Positions 7,205 to 34,485 of a DNA stretch of 34,485 bases are shown here, piece by piece (within the stretch, counting starts at the first letter, position 1; the number at the start of each line of letters is the position of its first letter). The DNA comes from Micromonospora parva (lineage in GTDB: Bacteria > Actinomycetota > Actinomycetes > Mycobacteriales > Micromonosporaceae). The notes under the pieces were generated by a model, which did no database searches, was not told where the DNA came from, and saw nothing but the letters and a program-made list of their open reading frames with translations. The stretch is from positions 1-34,485 of the forward strand of contig NZ_JNZS01000041.1 in assembly GCF_000718515.1 (NCBI RefSeq), written 5' to 3'. The translations under genes and the position numbers were made by a program.

Positions 7205-7372
7205 ATGTCCGAAACCAATGGGATAACGTTTGCGCCGGTGGGCGGCGCCACAGTGGCGGTGAGCGAGCCCACGCCGTTACCCTCCATCCGCAGCCACGGC
7301 CTGCCGGAGCGGCGACCTGACCGGCTCGTGCGGCCCCAGCGCGACAATTTGCAACGAGGTGACAACGCGTGA
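7205..7372 (+). CDS. Candidate 55-aa micro-ORF coupled to the downstream genes
   Basis: An ORF from ATG 7205 encodes a 55-aa soluble peptide starting MSETNGITFAPVGGATVAVS. I do not recognise it. About 78% of its third codon positions are G/C, which fits coding sequence with an AT-richer start region. Its TGA (7370-7372) overlaps the GTG (7369-7371) of the next small ORF in a GTGA arrangement. No clear Shine-Dalgarno precedes it; a TAGGGT -10-like hexamer lies at 7171-7176. It could be a leader peptide or simply part of the 5' leader of the giant WG-repeat gene. Confidence 0.4.
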   Translation: MSETNGITFAPVGGATVAVSEPTPLPSIRSHGLPERRPDRLVRPQRDNLQRGDNA

Positions 7373-7512
7373 GCGAGCGGACGCGAGCCGGCCACCGGGG
7401 CGTGGCAGGCGGCGACCGGACGCCCAGCGGTCACCCGGCGGCGGCTGCGGACAGCTCACTCCCGGCGAGGATCGGCCCGGCGGCCGGGTGTGGCGACGGG
7501 CTCGCCGGATGA
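7369..7512 (+). CDS. Candidate 47-aa micro-ORF, ATGA-coupled to the WG-repeat gene
   Basis: GTG 7369 is preceded by AGGTGA with six bases of spacing, a good ribosome binding site located inside the previous micro-ORF. The 47-aa product (VSERTRAGHRGVAGG...) has no recognised domain. Its TGA (7510-7512) overlaps the ATG (7509-7511) of the giant gene as ATGA. The chained GTGA and ATGA overlaps support translational coupling. An alternative is that translation runs in the giant gene's own frame from GTG 7359 and neither micro-ORF is real. Confidence 0.38.
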   Translation: MSERTRAGHRGVAGGDRTPSGHPAAAADSSLPARIGPAAGCGDGLAG

Positions 7513-10500
7513 ACGGCCGCTACACCGACCGGTGGCCAGACCCGAACGAACCGGCCTGGGTGATCGAACCGACCACCGAGTGGCACCCCCAGTTTCCCGG
7601 CCAGCGCTACCCCGGCGACATCGGCATGCCGCACCAGCCGCCACCCCGTGGGCGGGCGACGGTGTCCGGCCGCGCCGAGGTGCCGCCGCTCGCGCCCACC
7701 CGCCCGGACGGCACCTACCTCGGCCGGTCGTGGTCCGACGAACCACCGGCGGAACAGCCACCCCACGGCCGGTCCTGGGTGGACGACGAGCCGGACGGGG
7801 CACCGGCCTACGGCCGACTCCGCGACGACGAGCGCTCGGCGTACGGGCGGCCCGACAGCACCGACTCCCGGCACTACGACCACGAGCCGTACCGTCGACC
7901 GCTGCCCGAGCCACCCCGCCGCGAGGAACGCCGCTCCCCCGAGTCGGACCGGCGCACCGCCTGGTCCGATCGACGCCCCGCCGACGAACGGGGACCCGCG
8001 CGGGAAGCCGCCTGGCACCGCGACCAGCCCACCCCGGAGCGGTACGACAGCCGCCGCCCCCGGCAGGAGCCCACCGAGCGGGACCGTGGCTACCGGGGCA
8101 CACCGCCGGTCTCCCCGGCGCCCCGGCCCGAACCCGGCTGGGTGCCCGAGCCGGACGACGCGCCACGTCGACGCGGCACACCGGAGCGACCGGCGGCCGG
8201 CTACGAACGACACCCCGGCGACGGGTACGGCGTCCGACCCACCCGTGACCACGACGGCCGCAGCGCCGACGCTGTCGACCCGTGGGCACCCGTGGACGGC
8301 CGCCCCCGCTACCGCGCCGACGGGTACCCGGACCGGGCCGCCGACGACCTGCGCCGCCCAGACTCGCGCTACCGCGCGGACGAGGGGATGGGCGCAGCTC
8401 CCGCAGCCAACGGTGGACGACGGCGTCGACCCGAGGCGGACCTGCCCGGCCAGTCCCGCCTCGACGACGACCGGCGTCGCCCCGACACCGACCCGCACTG
8501 GCAGCAGCCCCGTGAGGCGGCAGCACGCGCCGAGGCGTACCCGGACCGGCGACCCCGCGAACAGGCCCGCCCGGACGCGTACCCCGAGAACGGGTACCGC
8601 GAGAACGCGCCTCGTGAGGACGCGTACCGCGAGCCCCGGCCGCAGCCGGGCCAACGGTCGGGCGACAGTCTGCCCTGGCCACCGCCGGGTCCGGTGCGCC
8701 AGGACCGCAGCCCGGACCGGGCCCGCGAGCCGGGCCACCGCCCCGAGCCGCCCCGCACCGCAGACCCGCACCGCACGTCAGACCCGCACCGCACCGAGCC
8801 GCACCGTGGCCCGGAGCCGTACCGCACCACGGACCCGTACCGTGGCGCCGACCCGGGCGTCGCGTCGCGGCCGACCGCCCGGCCCGAACGGCCGCCGGCC
8901 ACGCCGTCCCGACCCGACGACCGACCGGTACGGCCCGACGAGCGACCGGCGGCCGCCCCGGCGCGGCCCGACGAGCGAGGGGTACGTCCGGCCGCGACTG
9001 CGCCGCCCACGGCCGGCCGCGCCACGCCGGTCCCACCGGCCTCGCCGGAGCGACCGGTCTCGCCGGCACCCGTGTCCCCCGGTTGGGACCGGCCGGTCTC
9101 GCCGGCACCTGTCTCGCCCGGCTGGGACCGGCCGGCATCGCAGGCACCCGTGTCCCCCGGATCGGACCGGCCGGTCTCGCCGGCACCCGTCTCCCCCGCG
9201 CCCTCGGGTTGGAACCGGCCGGTGTCGGCCGCCCCGGTCTCCCCCGTCTTCCCGGACCGGCCGGTGTCGCCGGTACCCGTCGCCCCCGCGCCCCCCGGCC
9301 CGGAGCGACCGGTGTCCGCAGCCCCGGTGTCGCCGGGCCCGGTGTCCGCAGCTCCGGTGTCGCCCGCCGCCGACCTGCCCGTCTCGGGACCGCCCGCCGC
9401 CCGCCTGCGGCTGGAGTACCTGTCCGCGCCGGTGGAGCCGCCCGGCGCAGACGAGCGGTCCGATGGCCCGCCAGCACCCACACGCCGACCGCTGACCGAA
9501 CCGCCGTCGACGGCCGGGGCGCGTCACACCCCGCCGCCGCGTTACCCCGGCCCGGACACCGGGGACCGCCCGGTGGACCAGCGGCGCGGCGAGGAGCCGG
9601 GACCGGATCACCGTCGGGTCGGCGACCCGCTGTTCGGCAACCCGCCAACCGACCGCCGCCCGGTCACGCCGGACCGTTCGCCGTCCACGGAGCGGCAGCA
9701 CTCCGCCGATCGACCGGCCGCGCCGCAACACCCAGCCGCGCCGCAACACCCGTACCCGCCGCAGCGGCCGGACGCTCCGCAGCGCTCGTACCCGCCGGAG
9801 CGGGTGGCTCCGGTGGCGGACGCACGCCCGTCGGTCGCCCCGCCGCCCACCTGGCAGGCACCGGCGTCACCAGCGACCCGACCCACCCCGCGCCCGGACG
9901 ACCCCACGCCGGTGGCGCCTGCTCCTGGTCCGGCAGCGTCCCCGGACGGCACTGTCCCGCAGCCGCCGGCGATGGACGTCGCGCCGGTGCTTCCGCCGGC
10001 CCCCGGTACGCCGCGCCGCTACGTACCCCCGCCACCCTCGGAAGAACCGGTCACGCCCGTTCGCGAACCGGACGACGTCGCGAGCGTCCGTGGGCCGGAC
10101 GCGTGGTTCAGCCCGGCTCAGCCCGCCGATTCCTCGCCGGGTGCGTCGACGACCGACGAGCGGCAGTACGACCCGACCGACGATGAGTCGACGGCCGGCA
10201 GCCCCGACCTCTTCACGACAGCGGCCGCGTCGGACACGGAGGCGTCGACGCCGACGGCTGACACCCACCTGGACGTGACCGACGCCAGCGGGTCGACACC
10301 AGACGACGCCTTCGCCCCGGTCTCCGCGCCGCCCGCTGCCCCCGTCTCCGCGCCGCCCGCTGCCCCGGTCTCCGGTGCTCCCCGGCGCTGGCTGGACGAC
10401 GACCCGCAGCCCGCGTTCGACACGGCACCTGTGGACGACGACCAACCCGTCTCCGGCGCACCGCTGCTCGCGATCCCCCACCAGCAGGACGAACGCGACC

Positions 10501-12635
10501 TCGCAGCCGAACCCGACGTCGACAAGCAGGCCTACACCGCTTCACCCAATGAGGACGCCAACCCGGTCGAGTACCACCCGACGGACGAACTCGCGCCACC
10601 CGACGAGCCGACCGACGCTGTCGACGCTCCGAGCGCGAGCCCGGAGGGAGGCCCGTACGTCGACGAGTGGCCGGCGGAAGCCGCGCCGCCCGTGACGGCT
10701 GCGAACGACCCGAACCCGCCCGTCTCGGCACCGCCGTTCTCGGCACCACCCGTCTCGGCACCGCCCGTCTCGATCACGCCGGTGTCCGCTCCCCCGGCAC
10801 CGCCGGTATCGGCAGCGCCGGCAGCACCCGTCTCCGCGCCCCCAGCGTCCGCCGCGCCACAGGAACCCGTTTCCGCGCCACCCCTCGGCACAACGCCCGT
10901 CTCCGCGCCGCCTCTCGGCACAGCGCCCGTCTCCGCACCACCCACGCCGCCAGAGCCCCACTCCGCAGCGCCGGTATCCGCACCACCAACACCCGTGTCC
11001 GCACCACCCGCCCCGGCGGCGTCCGTGTCCGCACCGCCGGTGCCCGTCTCGGCGGCACCCGTCTCTGCGCCACCAGCCACAACGCCCGTTTCCGCGCCAC
11101 CGGCCTCGGCGACACCGTCCGCCACGGCACCGGTCTCCGAGCCACCAGCGTCGGTGGAGCCGACGTCCGGACCACCCGCGTCGGTGGAGCCGACGTCCGG
11201 ACCACCCGCGTCGGTGGAGCCGACGTCCGGGCCACCGGCCCCGGCCGTACCCGGCCCGAGGAGCGGCGCGGACGGGGAGAACGTGCCGGTGTCCGCGCCG
11301 CCTGCCGAGGCACCGCCGGTGGTGACCCGCCCGTCGCTGGCCGACCCGGGCGACCCGGAGCAGGTGCTGGCCGCGTACCGCTGGCGGCTGGATCCGGTGA
11401 CCCTGCGCGAGGAACTGACCGAGCCGGACGACCTGCGGGCCATTCGGCGACGGCTGACCGAGAAGTTGGGCTCGGCGGTCGACAACCGCGCCCGGGCCCG
11501 GCTGCTCAGCCTGCGGGCGGTGGCCTCGCGGATTCTCGGCGAGCTGGACGACGCGCTGGCCGACGGCCGGCTCGCCCTCACCTACGCCGAGGCCACCGGC
11601 GAGCTGCGCCGGACCGCGCTGGCCCAGGCCCGGCTGGCCCACGTGTTGCGCTGGCGCGGCGACTTCCCCGAGGCGGACCAGCTCTTCGCCCAGGCCAACT
11701 CGGTCGAGTTGCCTGACCGGTTGCGGGCCGCGCTGCACGAGCACGCCGGGCGGTCGTGTTACGACCAGGGGCGGCTCATGGAGGCGTGCGAGCACTTCGA
11801 GAAGGCGCTGGACCTGCGTGGGGCCGGCGACGCCGAACTGCTGGAGCGGGTCCGGGTGGCCCTCGACGCGGTCACCGTCCGGGCCGAGGCTGATGGCTTC
11901 GGGCCGTACCCCCGGGGTCGGGACGAGGTCCTCGACCGGGACCGGCCCCCGTTGCCGGACCGGGACGGGCAGCTGTGGGGTTACACCAGCCAGGACGGCG
12001 AGGTGGTCATTCCCGCCCGGTACGCCGAGGCGCAGCCCTTCCACGACGGGTTGGCCTGGGTCCGCCGACCGGACAGCGACCGCTGGTCGTTGATCAACCT
12101 GCTCGGTACGACGGTGATCCCGCCGTCCTTCCGGGCCGCGCATCCGTTCAGCGACGGCCTGGCCTGGGTGGTCGGCGAGGGCGGTTGGACGGCGATCGAC
12201 GCGACCGGGGCGGTGCAGGTCGCACCCAACTTCGCCGAGGTAAGACCATTCCGGCGTGGGCTGGCCGCGGTGCGGCGCGAGGGGTGGGGGGCGGTCGACC
12301 GGACCGGCCGGATCGTCGTGCCCACCCGTTACCACGGCTTCGTCACGGAGTTGGCCGACGGCCGGCAGGTCGACGGTTTCACCGATGAGGGGCTGGCCGT
12401 GGTCGACGTGGCGGGCCGGCGGGGTGTGGTGGACCGCACCGGCACGGTGCTGGTCCCGCCGGCGCACCCGATGCTGGTCATCCACCCGGTGGCGTTCCTG
12501 ATCGAGAGTGGCAACGGGCGGTGGGGTGCGCTGGACCGGCGCGGCGTGCCGCTCATCGACCCGGTGTACGGCGATCGCGCCGAGGTGCTGGAGGAGATCG
12601 ACCGACTACTCACCGACGCCAATCCGGTGCTCTGA
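7509..12635 (+). CDS. Giant Pro-rich protein with TPR-like region and WG repeats
   Basis: A protein of about 1,708 aa. Residues 1-1270 are low-complexity and probably disordered: an Arg/Asp/Pro-rich part with DPHRT/DPYR runs, then VSPAPVSPGWDRP-like repeats (about 515-640), then many PVSAPP-type repeats (about 936-957 and 1072-1264). The globular C-terminus has a TPR-like helical region (about 1330-1450) and WG (KWG) repeats from about 1488 to the end, seen as repeated units such as DGLAWVRR and WGAVDRTGRIVVPTRY. There is no signal peptide or membrane segment. A scaffold or binding role is likely, but the partner is unknown. ATG 7509 is chosen for its ATGA overlap with an upstream micro-ORF; GTG 7359 in the same frame is an alternative. 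Confidence 0.8.
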   Translation: MNGRYTDRWPDPNEPAWVIEPTTEWHPQFPGQRYPGDIGMPHQPPPRGRATVSGRAEVPPLAPTRPDGTYLGRSWSDEPPAEQPPHGRSWVDDEPDGAPAYGRLRDDERSAYGRPDSTDSRHYDHEPYRRPLPEPPRREERRSPESDRRTAWSDRRPADERGPAREAAWHRDQPTPERYDSRRPRQEPTERDRGYRGTPPVSPAPRPEPGWVPEPDDAPRRRGTPERPAAGYERHPGDGYGVRPTRDHDGRSADAVDPWAPVDGRPRYRADGYPDRAADDLRRPDSRYRADEGMGAAPAANGGRRRRPEADLPGQSRLDDDRRRPDTDPHWQQPREAAARAEAYPDRRPREQARPDAYPENGYRENAPREDAYREPRPQPGQRSGDSLPWPPPGPVRQDRSPDRAREPGHRPEPPRTADPHRTSDPHRTEPHRGPEPYRTTDPYRGADPGVASRPTARPERPPATPSRPDDRPVRPDERPAAAPARPDERGVRPAATAPPTAGRATPVPPASPERPVSPAPVSPGWDRPVSPAPVSPGWDRPASQAPVSPGSDRPVSPAPVSPAPSGWNRPVSAAPVSPVFPDRPVSPVPVAPAPPGPERPVSAAPVSPGPVSAAPVSPAADLPVSGPPAARLRLEYLSAPVEPPGADERSDGPPAPTRRPLTEPPSTAGARHTPPPRYPGPDTGDRPVDQRRGEEPGPDHRRVGDPLFGNPPTDRRPVTPDRSPSTERQHSADRPAAPQHPAAPQHPYPPQRPDAPQRSYPPERVAPVADARPSVAPPPTWQAPASPATRPTPRPDDPTPVAPAPGPAASPDGTVPQPPAMDVAPVLPPAPGTPRRYVPPPPSEEPVTPVREPDDVASVRGPDAWFSPAQPADSSPGASTTDERQYDPTDDESTAGSPDLFTTAAASDTEASTPTADTHLDVTDASGSTPDDAFAPVSAPPAAPVSAPPAAPVSGAPRRWLDDDPQPAFDTAPVDDDQPVSGAPLLAIPHQQDERDLAAEPDVDKQAYTASPNEDANPVEYHPTDELAPPDEPTDAVDAPSASPEGGPYVDEWPAEAAPPVTAANDPNPPVSAPPFSAPPVSAPPVSITPVSAPPAPPVSAAPAAPVSAPPASAAPQEPVSAPPLGTTPVSAPPLGTAPVSAPPTPPEPHSAAPVSAPPTPVSAPPAPAASVSAPPVPVSAAPVSAPPATTPVSAPPASATPSATAPVSEPPASVEPTSGPPASVEPTSGPPASVEPTSGPPAPAVPGPRSGADGENVPVSAPPAEAPPVVTRPSLADPGDPEQVLAAYRWRLDPVTLREELTEPDDLRAIRRRLTEKLGSAVDNRARARLLSLRAVASRILGELDDALADGRLALTYAEATGELRRTALAQARLAHVLRWRGDFPEADQLFAQANSVELPDRLRAALHEHAGRSCYDQGRLMEACEHFEKALDLRGAGDAELLERVRVALDAVTVRAEADGFGPYPRGRDEVLDRDRPPLPDRDGQLWGYTSQDGEVVIPARYAEAQPFHDGLAWVRRPDSDRWSLINLLGTTVIPPSFRAAHPFSDGLAWVVGEGGWTAIDATGAVQVAPNFAEVRPFRRGLAAVRREGWGAVDRTGRIVVPTRYHGFVTELADGRQVDGFTDEGLAVVDVAGRRGVVDRTGTVLVPPAHPMLVIHPVAFLIESGNGRWGALDRRGVPLIDPVYGDRAEVLEEIDRLLTDANPVL
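9055..9375 (+). repeat. Degenerate in-frame repeats (VSPAPVSP) in the WG-repeat gene
   Basis: Imperfect repeats built around the peptide PVSPAPVSPGWDRP, with a recurring GACCGGCCGGT-type core, make up this stretch. They stay in frame and encode a Pro/Ser/Val-rich linker. They vary between copies and are coding, so they are not a CRISPR array. Confidence 0.75.
11148..11237 (+). repeat. Three 30-bp tandem repeats in the WG-repeat gene
   Basis: Three consecutive 30-bp units (11148-11177, 11178-11207, 11208-11237) are almost identical and encode ASVEPTSGPP three times. The first two are exact and the third differs at two positions. They lie at the end of a longer PVSAPP repeat field (10723-11300). 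The near-identity suggests recent expansion by slippage and predicts length variation among strains. Confidence 0.9.
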
Positions 12636-19581: not shown

Positions 19582-20880
19582 ATGCTCATCACTGACGACT
19601 TCCTGCCCGTACCGGTGCCGGAGTCGCTCAGCGCGACCTACCTGGTGCCGATGACGGGGCTGCCGAAGGTCAGTGCGAAGACCGCGGTGGCGGCCCTGAC
19701 CGGCCGGCTCGCCGAGCCGGTGCACGGGCTGGCCCGGCAGATGCTCGACAGTCCGCTGATGAGCGTCGACACCCGGCCGATCAGCGAGTTCCCGGAGCTG
19801 CCGCCGGACCTGCTCACCGCGTTCGGCGCCACCGAGGAGCAGTTGGCCCGGCTGGCGGCGGCGACGCACCTGGTGGTCGTCCAGGCCGAGTACCGGCCCG
19901 GCTGGCCGCCGGCACACGAGTGGGCCGCCCGGGCGGTCGCGGCGGCCGTGGCCGAATCCGTCGACAGCGACGTGGTGGACGTCTTCGGTCTGCAATTCCT
20001 CGACCCGGCGACCGCGCTGCGGTCCCTCCCGGACGAGCAGGGCCGCATCCGGCTCGTCGACTGGGTGCTGGTGCCGTACTCCTCGGACACCGAGGGCCTG
20101 TGGTTCACCACGAAGGGGTTGCGCCGATTCGGCCTGCTGGAGTTGCAGACCCAGGGGGTGCCCGACCACCTCACCCGCGCCTGGGGTGCGGTGATGACCG
20201 GGGCGGCCCGCCGGCTGCTGCGGGACTGGACCGACGGGCTCACCGGCGAGGAGGTGCCGGCGTTCGTGCAGCTGCCGGTGCTGGCGACGGTCACCGGGCA
20301 CGACATCGCCGTGGCGTACGGCAATCCGGAGCAGCACGGTGCCACCGCCCCGGTGCTGCTCCGCCTCGAACTGGACCCGGCGACCGACCCGGAGGCCGAC
20401 TCGTTCCTCAGCCTGCGCCCGCCGGCCGGGCATCCCGGCCCGGACGGGCGGTACTACGCCGCCGCCTGCGCCACGCTGTTCTCCGGCATCCAGCCGGACG
20501 TGCGCTACGCACGCTCCGGTGACGCGATGAGCCGTGCGGTCGCCACCGCCCGGGCCGCGCTCGGTGACGCGCGGGCCCGGTTCGTCGCCGGTCGGTTCCC
20601 CACCGAGTCGCAGCTGGTGGTGAAGTACGGCCTGCCCGGGGACGACGGCCCGGAGTACGTCTGGGCGGGCGTCACCTCGTGGGAGGTCCCGGAGCGGATC
20701 GTGGGCGTGAGCGCCAGCGACGCCAACACCGACCAGAGCGTCCGCATCGGAGCCCCGGTGGTGGTGGAGACCTCCGACGTGGTCGACTGGGCCGTCCTGG
20801 ACGCGACAGGCGTCATCGAAGGCGGCTGGACCCAGGCAGTCCTGGACTCCGGCGAACCCCCCAAACCCCAAACCCCCTAA
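19582..20880 (+). CDS. DUF2314 domain-containing protein
   Basis: A 432-aa soluble protein. The C-terminal part (about 310-425) fits DUF2314: an Ala-rich helix followed by QLVVKYGLPGDDGPEYVW, VTSWE and VVDWAVLD. The N-terminal 300 residues (MLITDDFLPVPVPESLSATY...) are not recognised but contain alternating strands and helices like many Micromonospora proteins of unknown function. GGGGGA lies seven bases before the ATG. It follows cobS by 67 bases and may be co-transcribed, but no link to cobalamin synthesis is visible. Its stop is followed by a C-rich tract and a long palindrome. Confidence 0.75.
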   Translation: MLITDDFLPVPVPESLSATYLVPMTGLPKVSAKTAVAALTGRLAEPVHGLARQMLDSPLMSVDTRPISEFPELPPDLLTAFGATEEQLARLAAATHLVVVQAEYRPGWPPAHEWAARAVAAAVAESVDSDVVDVFGLQFLDPATALRSLPDEQGRIRLVDWVLVPYSSDTEGLWFTTKGLRRFGLLELQTQGVPDHLTRAWGAVMTGAARRLLRDWTDGLTGEEVPAFVQLPVLATVTGHDIAVAYGNPEQHGATAPVLLRLELDPATDPEADSFLSLRPPAGHPGPDGRYYAAACATLFSGIQPDVRYARSGDAMSRAVATARAALGDARARFVAGRFPTESQLVVKYGLPGDDGPEYVWAGVTSWEVPERIVGVSASDANTDQSVRIGAPVVVETSDVVDWAVLDATGVIEGGWTQAVLDSGEPPKPQTP

Positions 20881-20906
20881 CCCCCGCCCCCTCCCACCCC
20901 CGCCGA

Positions 20907-20975
20907 ATTGGCGTTGATCATGAGGTTGACGGGGCCGTTGATCTCCAAATGGCCCGTCAACCTCATGATCAACGC
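20907..20975. repeat. Long palindromic element (ATTGGCGTTGATCA family), complete copy
   Basis: Arms 20911-20933 and 20953-20975 are perfectly complementary over 23 bp, extended by CC/GG with one bulged G, around a 14-base loop. It lies between the convergent DUF2314 and gcvT genes and could terminate both. The 21 bases at 20907-20927 recur with one mismatch at 34465-34485, again just past a C-rich tract that follows a stop codon, so this is a repeated element and not only a local terminator. Confidence 0.85.
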
Positions 20976-20990
20976 TGAAGGCGGGTGGGG

Positions 20991-22121
20991 CTACTTCACC
21001 GAGGGGGTTACGAAGGGGGGTTTGGTGAGGGTCAGGGGGGCTCGGCGGCCTCGGATGTCGATCTCGACTTCGGCACCGTCCGCGAGGTTGGCGTCGGTGT
21101 CGAGCAGGGCCAGGGCGATGCCCTGCTTCCTCGTCGGGCTGAAGGTGCCGCTGGTCACGGTGCCGACCTGGACGTCACCCACGTGCAGGGTCATGCCGGG
21201 GCGCGGGATGGCCCGGTCCACGGCCACCAGGCCGCGCAGCGTCCGCCGGGGGCCGGCGGCCCGCTCGGCGAGCAGCGCGTCGCGGCCCCAGAAGGCCGGC
21301 TTGTCCCAACCGACCGCCCAGCCGGAGCGGGCCTGCACCGGGCTGATGTCCAGGGAGAGGTCCTGCCCGTGCAGCGGGTAACCCATCTCGGTGCGCAGCG
21401 TGTCCCGGGCGGCCAGCCCGCAGGCGCGCAGCCCGAACGTCGCGCCGACGGCGAAGAGCGCGTCCCAGACCGCTACCGCGTGCTCTGCCGGCACCACCAG
21501 CTCGTAGCCCAACTCGCCCGTGTAGCCGGTACGGCAGACGGTCAGCTCCACCCCGGCCAGGCTCGCGGCGGAGAAGCTCATGTACCCGTGCTCGGTGGGC
21601 AGGTCCAGGGCGGCCAGCAACTCGGCCGAGCGGGGGCCCTGCACGGCCAGCACCGCGTACGCCTCGTGCTCGTCGGTGACTGTCACCTGCGCGGGCGCGG
21701 CGGCGCGCAACCGGCGTACCACCTCGGCGGTGTTCGCCGCGTTCGGGATGAGGAAGACGTGGTCGTCGGCGTAGAGGTAGGCGATGATGTCGTCCACCAC
21801 GCCGCCGGTGGCGTCGTCGCAGCAGAGTGTGTACTGCGCCCGGCCCGGGCCGATCCGGCCCAGGTCGTTGCTGAGGCAGGAGTTGACGAAGTCGGCCGCG
21901 CCGGGGCCGCTCACCCGGGCCTTGCCCAGGTGCGACACGTCGAAGACCCCGACCGCCGTACGCACAGCGGTGTGCTCCTTGAGCACTCCCCCGCCGGCGT
22001 ACTCCAGCGGCATCTCCCAGCCCCCGAAGGGGGCGAACTTGGCTCCGGCGGCGGTGTGCCGCTCGTGCAGCGGGGAACGGCGCAGCCGGGTCGCGGCGGC
22101 GTCGGAGGTCACGTCGGTCAT
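20991..22121 (-). CDS. gcvT: Glycine cleavage system aminomethyltransferase (T protein)
   Basis: A 376-aa T protein that releases ammonia from the aminomethyl-lipoyl H protein and passes the one-carbon unit to tetrahydrofolate. Recognisable family segments include [52 protein letters not shown] and [20 protein letters not shown]. Homology supports ATG 22121 rather than the upstream in-frame start at 22160. On the minus strand a -10-like TAAGTT ends seven bases before the ATG, so the mRNA may be leaderless. That leaves no room for a glycine riboswitch, and none is seen. gcvP and gcvH are not in the window. Confidence 0.93.
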
Positions 22122-22283
22122 GGGTGGCAACTTACCGGGGGCAACGCCGCTGGTTAGCATCGGCGGGAGCCCGCTGGCGCCGTCGGCGGGACAGCCATGA
22201 CGTCCGGCAGGTAGGTTCCGCCGGAGACCTTCACCGCTGGTACGCGACGCCGCGACCGGCCCGGCCCGCCCGGAGTAGCTTCA
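22122..22283. other. Divergent promoter region of gcvT and pepA
   Basis: This 162-base gap holds the gcvT -10-like TAAGTT (minus strand) and the pepA ribosome binding site GGAG near 22275. I see no riboswitch fold or long inverted repeat here. Confidence 0.4.
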
Positions 22284-33531: not shown

Positions 33532-34437
33532 ATGCGGATCCTTCTGGCCGGCGCGTCCGGCTTCCTCGGCACCCGGCTGGCCGACCGGCTCACCGCCGAC
33601 GGGCACCAGATCACCCGGCTGGTCCGTCGGTCGCCGCGCGACTCGCAGCAGCGTCAGTGGGACCCCGCCGCCGGGCAGCTCGACCCGGCAGTCGTCGCCG
33701 AGGCCGACGCGGTCGTCAACCTGGCCGGGGCGGGCGTCGGCGACAAGCGCTGGAACGACGACTACCGCCGGTTGATCCGCACCAGCCGGGTGGACAGCAC
33801 CACCACGCTGGCGACCACCATCGCCGGGCTGCCCACCGCGGACCGGCCCCGGGTGCTGCTCAACTCATCGGCCGTGGGCTGGTACGGCAACACCGGCGAC
33901 CGGGCGGTCGAGGAGGACGCGCCGGCCGGCGAGGGCTTCCTGGCCGACGTCTGCCGGGTGTGGGAGGCCGCGACCCGGCCGGCCGAGGACGCCGGGGTAC
34001 GCGTGGTGCGGCTGCGGACCGGCCTGCCACTGGACCGCGAGGGCGGGCTGCTCAAGCCGCAACTGCTGCCGTTCAAGCTGGGTATCGCCGGCCGGCTGGG
34101 CAGCGGTCGGCAGTGGCTGCCGTGGATCTCGATGGCCGACTGGCTGGACGCGACCCGCTTCCTGCTCGACCACGACGACATCGCCGGCCCGGTGAACGTG
34201 GTGGGGCCGAACCCGGTGACGAACGCCGAGTTCACCCGTGAACTGGCCCGGCAGCTGCACCGCCCGGCGATCATCCCGATCCCCGCGCTGGCGCTCAAGG
34301 TGGTCCTCGGCGGTTTCGCCCACGAGGCCCTCACCAGCACCCGCGTCCTGCCCGGCGTCCTAGCCCGAGCCGCCTACCCCTACCAGCACCCCACGCTCCC
34401 CCAAGCCCTAAAAGCAGCCCTAAACCCCACCCCCTAA
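33532..34437 (+). CDS. TIGR01777-family epimerase (SDR39U1-like)
   Basis: A 301-aa atypical SDR. The N-terminal Rossmann motif AGASGFLGTRL (6-16), VNLAGAGVGDKRWNDDYRR and the C-terminal DUF1731 segment (LGGFAHEALTSTRVLPGVLARAAYPYQHPTLPQAL in part) are diagnostic of TIGR01777. The biochemical role is not established, though the family is linked to cell division or lipid/sugar nucleotide metabolism in some hosts. In M. tuberculosis the ortholog Rv2216 directly follows dlaT and precedes lipB-lipA, so lipB may lie just beyond this window. GGGGG or a -10-like GAAGAT precedes ATG 33532. Confidence 0.92.
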   Translation: MRILLAGASGFLGTRLADRLTADGHQITRLVRRSPRDSQQRQWDPAAGQLDPAVVAEADAVVNLAGAGVGDKRWNDDYRRLIRTSRVDSTTTLATTIAGLPTADRPRVLLNSSAVGWYGNTGDRAVEEDAPAGEGFLADVCRVWEAATRPAEDAGVRVVRLRTGLPLDREGGLLKPQLLPFKLGIAGRLGSGRQWLPWISMADWLDATRFLLDHDDIAGPVNVVGPNPVTNAEFTRELARQLHRPAIIPIPALALKVVLGGFAHEALTSTRVLPGVLARAAYPYQHPTLPQALKAALNPTP

Positions 34438-34464
34438 CCCCCACCCACCCACCCACCCACCACC
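34438..34464. repeat. C-rich tract after the epimerase stop
   Basis: Repeated CCCA units follow the TAA directly and run into a second copy of the palindromic element. The same layout follows the stop at 20880. Confidence 0.75.
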
Positions 34465-34485
34465 ATTGGCGTTGATCAAGAGGTT
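34465..34485. repeat. Second copy of the palindromic element, cut by the window end
   Basis: These 21 bases match 20907-20927 with one mismatch (T to A at 34479). Only the left arm is in the window. Its complementary arm is expected just downstream. Confidence 0.8.

Follow-up and report, generated by a model that had tools for sequence, protein, structure and literature searches.

The palindrome and its neighbors in the window

The window analyzed in this study, a stretch of 34,485 nucleotides, is the whole of contig C41 of the Micromonospora parva genome. Two of its genes, a plus-strand gene whose DUF2314 match falls just below the cut-off (19582-20880) and the minus-strand gcvT gene encoding an aminomethyltransferase (20991-22160; PF01571, E 3.3e-86), are convergent, and a palindrome lies between their ends. 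The first gene stops with TAA at 20878-20880, followed by a C-rich tract on the plus strand (20881-20906); on the other side, a G-rich tract at 20980-20990, that is, the minus-strand C-rich tract of the opposite gene, separates the palindrome from the gcvT stop codon (TAG, minus strand), with gcvT ending at 20991. The palindrome (20911-20975) has perfect 23-bp arms at 20911-20933 (plus strand) and 20953-20975 (minus strand), its interior pairs further, and the arms lengthen to 30 nt at 90% once mismatches are allowed. A preliminary description of this DNA was right about the perfect arms, but its start at 20907 takes in four bases (ATTG) outside of them. The palindromic unit proper, GT-TGATCATGAGGTTGACGG with its inverted copy, occupies 20913-20973, conservation between copies ending at the outer G/C, and belongs to the subtype denoted TG below. 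The covariance model introduced in the next section matches 20911-20975 with 70.1 bits (E 5.1e-15).

The left arm of a second copy, of subtype A, is found on the plus strand at 34469-34485, where it is cut by the contig end. It is preceded by a plus-strand gene of the NAD-dependent epimerase family (33532-34437; Pfam match) with a TAA stop codon at 34435-34437, and by a C-rich tract on the same strand (34438-34464). As described earlier, each copy in the window is preceded by a TAA stop with a C-rich tract behind it, and positions 34465-34485 repeat 20907-20927 with one mismatch (T/A). As this mismatch distinguishes two subtypes, the copies represent different variants. Judging from the overlap, the complete form of the second copy is very probably the start of contig C6 (C6:38-101): the last 52 bases of the window (34434-34485) align with the C6 start with one mismatch, so that C41 and C6 are probably neighbors left unjoined by the assembler at the hairpin.

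A 15-base arm pattern has six matches in the window against 0.07 expected, three of them being the arms reported above and the other three carrying two mismatches. Comparison of the window with Rfam gave no match above the curated gathering threshold; at the palindrome, three microRNA matches were far below it. Elsewhere in the window, positions 7359-12635 form an open frame of 1758 aa, of which the codon model called only the end, from 11319, as coding.

Copy number, range and placement of the family

In the M. parva genome (G000), a 17-base arm with at most two mismatches gave 52 + 50 matches, compared with 3 + 0 for the reversed pattern. Of 150 candidates scored in the 7.1-Mb genome, the covariance model R1, built from 22 copies (alignment A1), matched 137, corresponding to 69 places, all but one of them matched on both strands; model searches scored at most 150, 86, 26 or 17 candidates per genome, and hence this and other copy numbers are lower bounds. 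The possibility raised earlier that only two copies exist is thereby discarded. As the seeds were picked by the arm pattern and the model favors the arm, the conservation of the outer arm among the matches is partly by construction. A motif-free scan for long hairpins in 784 kb, which serves as an unbiased check on these seeds, identified 21 hairpins, six of them of the palindrome family, with none in a Markov control.

The comparison with other Micromonospora genomes, proposed at the outset, detected R1 matches (E <= 0.01) in all 36 same-genus genomes drawn, although one of them (G015) has only two, with a best E of 3e-4. At the same threshold, matches occur in 43 of 61 genomes and 7 of 23 genera of the order, including other families; the family draw (E <= 0.001) gave 82 of 200 genomes and 20 of 44 genera, and the class draw (E <= 1e-4) 43 of 296 genomes and 30 of 114 genera, the own genome and genus being included in the order, family and class counts. 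Most of 37 genomes contain the same arm patterns, about 19 bases long, in tens of copies. Among the best matches of 17 distant genomes, one per genome (L334-L350), the left arm is exactly TGATCNTGNNGTT in nine and within one mismatch of it in 16, and in other families of the order (L112-L133) it is within one mismatch in 14 of 22 loci. The loop CGACACGC or GCGTGTCG is present in 16 of 66 own copies, 6 of the 22 order loci, and 2 of the 17 distant loci. No copies were found in plasmids and phages with one A-type query, or in viral contigs with one arm-pair pattern. We found no description of this palindrome family in open-access papers, subscription literature lying largely outside the scope of the search.

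Placement was analyzed for 66 of the 69 own places (C16:32-96, C11:167838, and C31:24000 were left out), with gene calls from a simple codon model that are crude and in some cases surely wrong. Thirty copies lie between convergent genes, 16 + 7 between tandem and four between divergent ones, two are inside a called gene, and seven have one neighbor, the other being off the contig; thus the alternative that copies are scattered randomly within genes did not hold. Of the intergenic bases in the 784-kb sample, 9.4% belong to convergent gaps, yet these contain 30 of the 57 copies with both neighbors called, against 23 tandem and four divergent ones (p 1.5e-16). The convergent enrichment has p 5e-9 when gap numbers serve as the reference; divergent gaps contain fewer copies than expected (p 1e-5). 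The four copies called divergent and the two inside called genes count against a role at gene ends. In other families of the order, 21 of 22 loci could be located, of which 11 are convergent, eight tandem, one divergent, and one inside a gene. Flanking genes (79 proteins of 81 listed) match 143 Pfam families; the best 25 of these have an ordinary metabolic or housekeeping look and include no transposase.

The palindrome follows the upstream stop codon at a median distance of 22 nt (65 stops). The 65 spacers consist of C by 66.8%, and the right 40-nt flanks of 65 copies contain 56.5% G. Stop codons preceding a unit are TAA in 37 of 65 cases, compared with 33 of 696 other genes (Fisher p 4e-26); on the gcvT tree (see below), co-occurrence of TAA and hairpin as independent events did not reach significance (8 pairs, median p 0.5). 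That tract and palindrome form a composite, as had been proposed, agrees with one clear presence/absence pair: at C9:424471 the own genome has a TAA, C tract, hairpin, G tract, and the TAA of the opposite gene, and in the close relative G002 the plus-strand gene ends with TGA and neither tract nor hairpin is present. At C9:201107, G002 likewise lacks tract and hairpin, with TGA in both genomes. From these two comparisons, tract and palindrome appear to come or go jointly.

The TGATCA of the unit gives a TGA on either strand. It supplies the called TGA stop at L112, L117, L127, and L131, and the own copies at C13:43621, C36:21037, C23:84201, and C6:169095 also have a stop of this kind.

Unit structure and exchange of subtypes

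In a comparison of 53 copies, with rough subtype labels that put some TA-like copies under TG, conservation within a subtype begins sharply at G[T/G]TGATCA and stops at its mirror, C-richness alone extending beyond. The outer arm is conserved (GKTGATCAWGARGTT in the own genome), and the inner arm and loop are variable. The earlier remark that the primary sequence is conserved beyond the needs of folding is supported. The compensatory changes between arms that had been suggested as a check were also found: 89.7% of cells are paired, and 11 of 24 pairs have changes on both sides; such double changes affect 44 cells, compared with 17.4 in shuffles, although these counts are inflated by relatedness among copies. 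Every slid pairing register is far worse than the true one. The median MFE of 66 own copies is -36.8 kcal/mol.

Three subtypes share the outer arm and differ inside, namely A (TGATCAAGAGGTTTGCGTCA), TG (TGATCATGAGGTTGRCGG), and TA (TGATCATGAAGTTATTGCC). By eye, five own A copies combine one GCGTC arm with one CGGTC arm, and hence arms can be mosaic. The subtype mix of the own genome is 59% A, 22% TA, and 19% TG. It differs between genomes: by arm counts, G008, G012, and G011 have only A, G021 is 94% TG, and G002 is 65% TA, and at least 90% of arms are of one subtype in 6 of 32 genomes having at least 10 arms, the patterns used permitting one mismatch and missing divergent copies. Unit numbers differ as well, with 90-100 in the complete genomes G008 and G012 and few in G006.

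Eight of nine own copies on contig C9 (443750, near the contig end, was left out) were compared with the syntenic 400 kb of G002, a close relative available in one contig and matching at 91% along a 3.1-kb query, for part of which a few fragmented genomes come closer. G002 has no unit at two of the sites, and six are shared. At two of the shared sites the units are of the same subtype and 85-86% identical, and at the other four the subtype differs: A in the own genome and TA in G002 at 302979 and 346876, and TG and TA, respectively, at 322803 and 323867. The alignment of the hairpins at 322803 broke down (15/65), and the subtype call there comes from the syntenic sequence comparison. The 300-nt flanks of the four swapped sites are 78-95% identical, the lowest values (78-81% at 300 nt; about 75% in another comparison) belonging to the weakly conserved gene that separates 322803 from 323867. 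The C tract is partly retained at the swapped sites, best at 346876. As controls, we considered other long hairpins from the motif-free scan, five of six having a syntenic match in G002, without regard to whether they lie at gene ends. All five are recognizably the same sequence in both genomes; three are 95-100% identical, and the others are 84%, a member of the second dispersed hairpin family described below, and 73%.

The site behind gcvT was compared in 80 named genomes and the window, of which 72 of 81 were scorable, nine loci ending near the gene end. A unit is present in 37 of the 72 loci (16 TG, 15 A, 6 TA, assigned by regular expression, with no missed copy noticed in the first 150 bases) and absent from 35; it is therefore dispensable behind gcvT. 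On the gcvT tree, presence requires 11 changes against a shuffled mean of 24.3, with none of 200 shuffles as low, while subtype requires 17 changes against 16.2, with 153 of 200 shuffles as low or lower. Thus presence follows the tree, and subtype carries no phylogenetic signal at this site. Of the eight two-row forks with a unit in both rows, two of the eight being unstarred on the tree, six join units of unlike subtype, their gcvT genes being 93.2-97.5% identical.

A second site, the gene end at C9:302979, was fetched from 30 of 36 genomes. The unit is present in 14 loci and absent in 12, the remaining four loci ending before the site. The own copy is A, that of G002 is TA, that of G017 is TG, and 12 further genomes have A (nine by label and three divergent ones, L259, L265, and L268, by eye); one subtype dominates, and exchange is seen here less often. 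Taken together, these sequence comparisons strongly indicate exchange of whole units at unchanged sites.

Function and origin of the units

Although actinomycetes are among the major sources of antibiotics, little is known, to our knowledge, about how their transcripts end, and terminators with a U-tract are rare. The best reading of the palindrome is probably that of a dispersed bidirectional hairpin acting at transcript 3' ends, that is, a terminator. The dispersed terminator considered in the preliminary description is right as to dispersal and position at gene 3' ends, and termination is the predicted function that fits best. Specifically, we suggest, with a probability of about 0.6, that the palindromic units, about 60 bp long and lying a few tens of bases past stop codons, in about half of the cases at convergent gene pairs, serve as bidirectional terminators or 3'-end stabilizers and are replaced by copying. 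Rho loads onto C-rich, G-poor RNA, and in RNA arriving from either side the C-rich stretch could invite it; the long stem would then halt the polymerase or protect the trimmed 3' end. Replacement would proceed by copying of another unit from elsewhere in the genome, the common outer arm possibly providing a shared end or homology.

The best argument for a 3'-end role in RNA is the predicted interchange of hairpins at the gene end C9:302979. Of the 12 genomes that lack the palindrome there, 10 have an unrelated best stem behind the stop that beats all 20 shuffles, the stops having been located by a loose context rule that failed at the palindrome-bearing L254, L256, and L272. These substitute hairpins are not independent, as several genomes have one in common. 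For instance, GCGAAGGCCCGGCC...GGCCGGGCCTTCGC occurs in four genomes, and L275 and L280 (similarly L264) have a hairpin near GCCCCCTG...TTRACAGGGGGC instead, which resembles the own C9:55928. Folding of the whole region in the 12 palindrome-free loci, which is weaker evidence, gave z-scores from -0.04 to -2.75, three of the 12 being below -2. The unit resembles a canonical intrinsic terminator in having a stable hairpin shortly behind the stop codon, but differs in the missing U-tract: the 10 nt after the hairpin contain on average 1.2 U (83 ends), so it is not a terminator of the canonical type.

A recognizable dispersed gene-end unit makes transcript ending in actinomycetes testable. If the exchange of units at fixed sites is true, it would be an unusual bacterial case of functional signals overwritten by copying, would call for some copying process, and might possibly represent a new principle. 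More tentatively, and with rather less confidence than in the reading above, one may envisage an old, class-wide family of mobile terminators, which share an outer arm close to TGATCNTGNNGTT and some of which also share the loop CGACACGC or GCGTGTCG, that would be copied from site to site within a genome without a known transposase. Gene ends with a unit would keep one, but its subtype would be overwritten faster than sister species separate. If so, molecular drive would act on functional 3'-end signals.

It is rather unlikely that the unit is a MITE, in which two terminal inverted repeats adjoin and are moved by a DDE or other transposase that has escaped recognition, with gene ends tolerated or targeted and a terminator role secondary. 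Such an element would account for the sharp edges, the presence/absence pattern, the whole-unit exchange, and the mosaic arms seen by eye in the five own A copies; but at two pairs of empty and filled sites no target-site duplication was visible by eye, and swaps (four) outnumber empty sites (two) between own C9 and G002. Moreover, 38 of the 39 best arm matches (at most one mismatch) lie in a model palindrome or at a contig end; with one exception, these matches thus include no solitary arm that could derive from a longer parent element.

We consider it unlikely that the palindrome is a DNA-level site for a conserved chromosomal protein involved in nucleoid structure, condensin function, or recombination, for which gene ends would merely be safe ground. 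The results speak neither for nor against the nucleoid protein named in the preliminary description. The palindromic symmetry and the outer arm alike in distant relatives favor a DNA site. G-U versus A-C mismatches, counted in 37 tandem copies of the own and other genomes, lean towards G-U when read with transcription (20:12, 27:22, and 40:30 in the outer 18, 22, and 24 pairs), a skew that is not clear and to that extent agrees with a DNA site. However, the unit comes with a C tract and a TAA stop and its placement is bound to stop codons, and the inner stem remains paired despite sequence change, which a duplex-binding protein would not need.

An RNase III site is still less probable. The stem of about 24 bp, equal to about two turns of an RNA helix, could be cut as double-stranded RNA, setting the 3' ends or the decay of mRNA, and the position behind genes suits this proposal, which by itself leaves the exchange of sequences unexplained.

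By kind, the unit is a dispersed extragenic palindrome, and the preliminary description had suggested a REP-like element spread by a host transposase. Spreading finds a counterpart in the strongly indicated whole-unit exchange, but movement of a REP or REPIN by a RAYT (Y1) transposase is very improbable. REPs are described as palindromic, extragenic, high-copy sequences of 20-40 bp, with proposed roles in termination and mRNA stability, that bear a GTAG or CGTC tag at one end (PMC3733652, in the part of that article drawn on here). The M. parva palindromes are similarly extragenic and numerous (69 places, 2 of 66 copies inside called genes), and the subtype mix is genome-specific. Unlike these elements, they have units of about 60 bp with arms of 20-30 bp, too long for a REP as described in that part of the article, are bound to gene 3' ends together with the C tract, and retain a unit at a site while its subtype changes. 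They end in G[T/G]TGATCA instead of the GTAG/CGTC tag, with flanks beyond that are merely C-rich, and no Y1 transposase (PF01797) was detected in G000, with 5 of 14 controls positive. Thus membership in the REP family fails on transposase, size, and tag.

Finally, the notion that these are ordinary long terminators whose similarity is due to convergence, although compatible with the gene-end position, the lack of phage, plasmid, or viral-contig matches for the queries tried, the occupation of the same gene end elsewhere by other hairpins, and the likewise long, stable, and U-poor terminators of Streptomyces (PMC12207403, as far as its terminator descriptions are used here), is hardly tenable in view of the primary sequence identity among copies at unrelated genes, the recurrence of arm patterns of about 19 bases tens of times in most of 37 genomes, the sharp edges, and the swapping of whole subtypes at fixed sites. 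In that Term-seq atlas, the terminators are U-poor, long, and covarying, and Rho-dependent or non-canonical termination is discussed (PMC12207403, same parts). The M. parva units share with them length, stability, lack of U, position behind genes, and hairpin covariation, and differ by forming a dispersed primary-sequence family with subtype exchange, neither of which is mentioned for the atlas terminators in the parts of the article considered. In Neisseria, inverted pairs of DNA uptake sequences are described as terminators (PMC2267715, in the portion cited here). These also consist of a repeated motif in an inverted pair that may form a terminator hairpin, but the Micromonospora arms almost never occur singly, and the inner stem and loop are part of the unit.

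In Actinoplanes sp. SE50/110, another genome of the Micromonosporaceae, stable GC-rich structures broke assembly contigs (PMC3364876, in the passages used here). The Micromonospora units likewise are stable contig-breaking structures, but they constitute a repeat family, and the SE50/110 structures are not so described in those passages. In the own genome, 11 of 174 contig ends lie within about 100 bases of a unit or arm. The mean number of arms per strand is 55 in 11 genomes with at most five contigs and 27.5 in 10 genomes with at least 250, kinship being ignored in this comparison. The units account for some short-read contig breaks, which may explain why the family was overlooked. Two of the loci behind gcvT, L146 and L159, are on short contigs that fold back at the hairpin and continue with the gcvT end in reverse complement; this is probably an assembly or library artefact.

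A second hairpin family, of 75-77 bases and with arms near TGATC[G/C]ACTCG[G/C]GTTTC.GGAA, also opens with (T)GATC. Its copies in G000 are located at C9:353223-353297, C4:82489-82565, and C4:236333-236409, and the C9 copy is 84% identical in G002.
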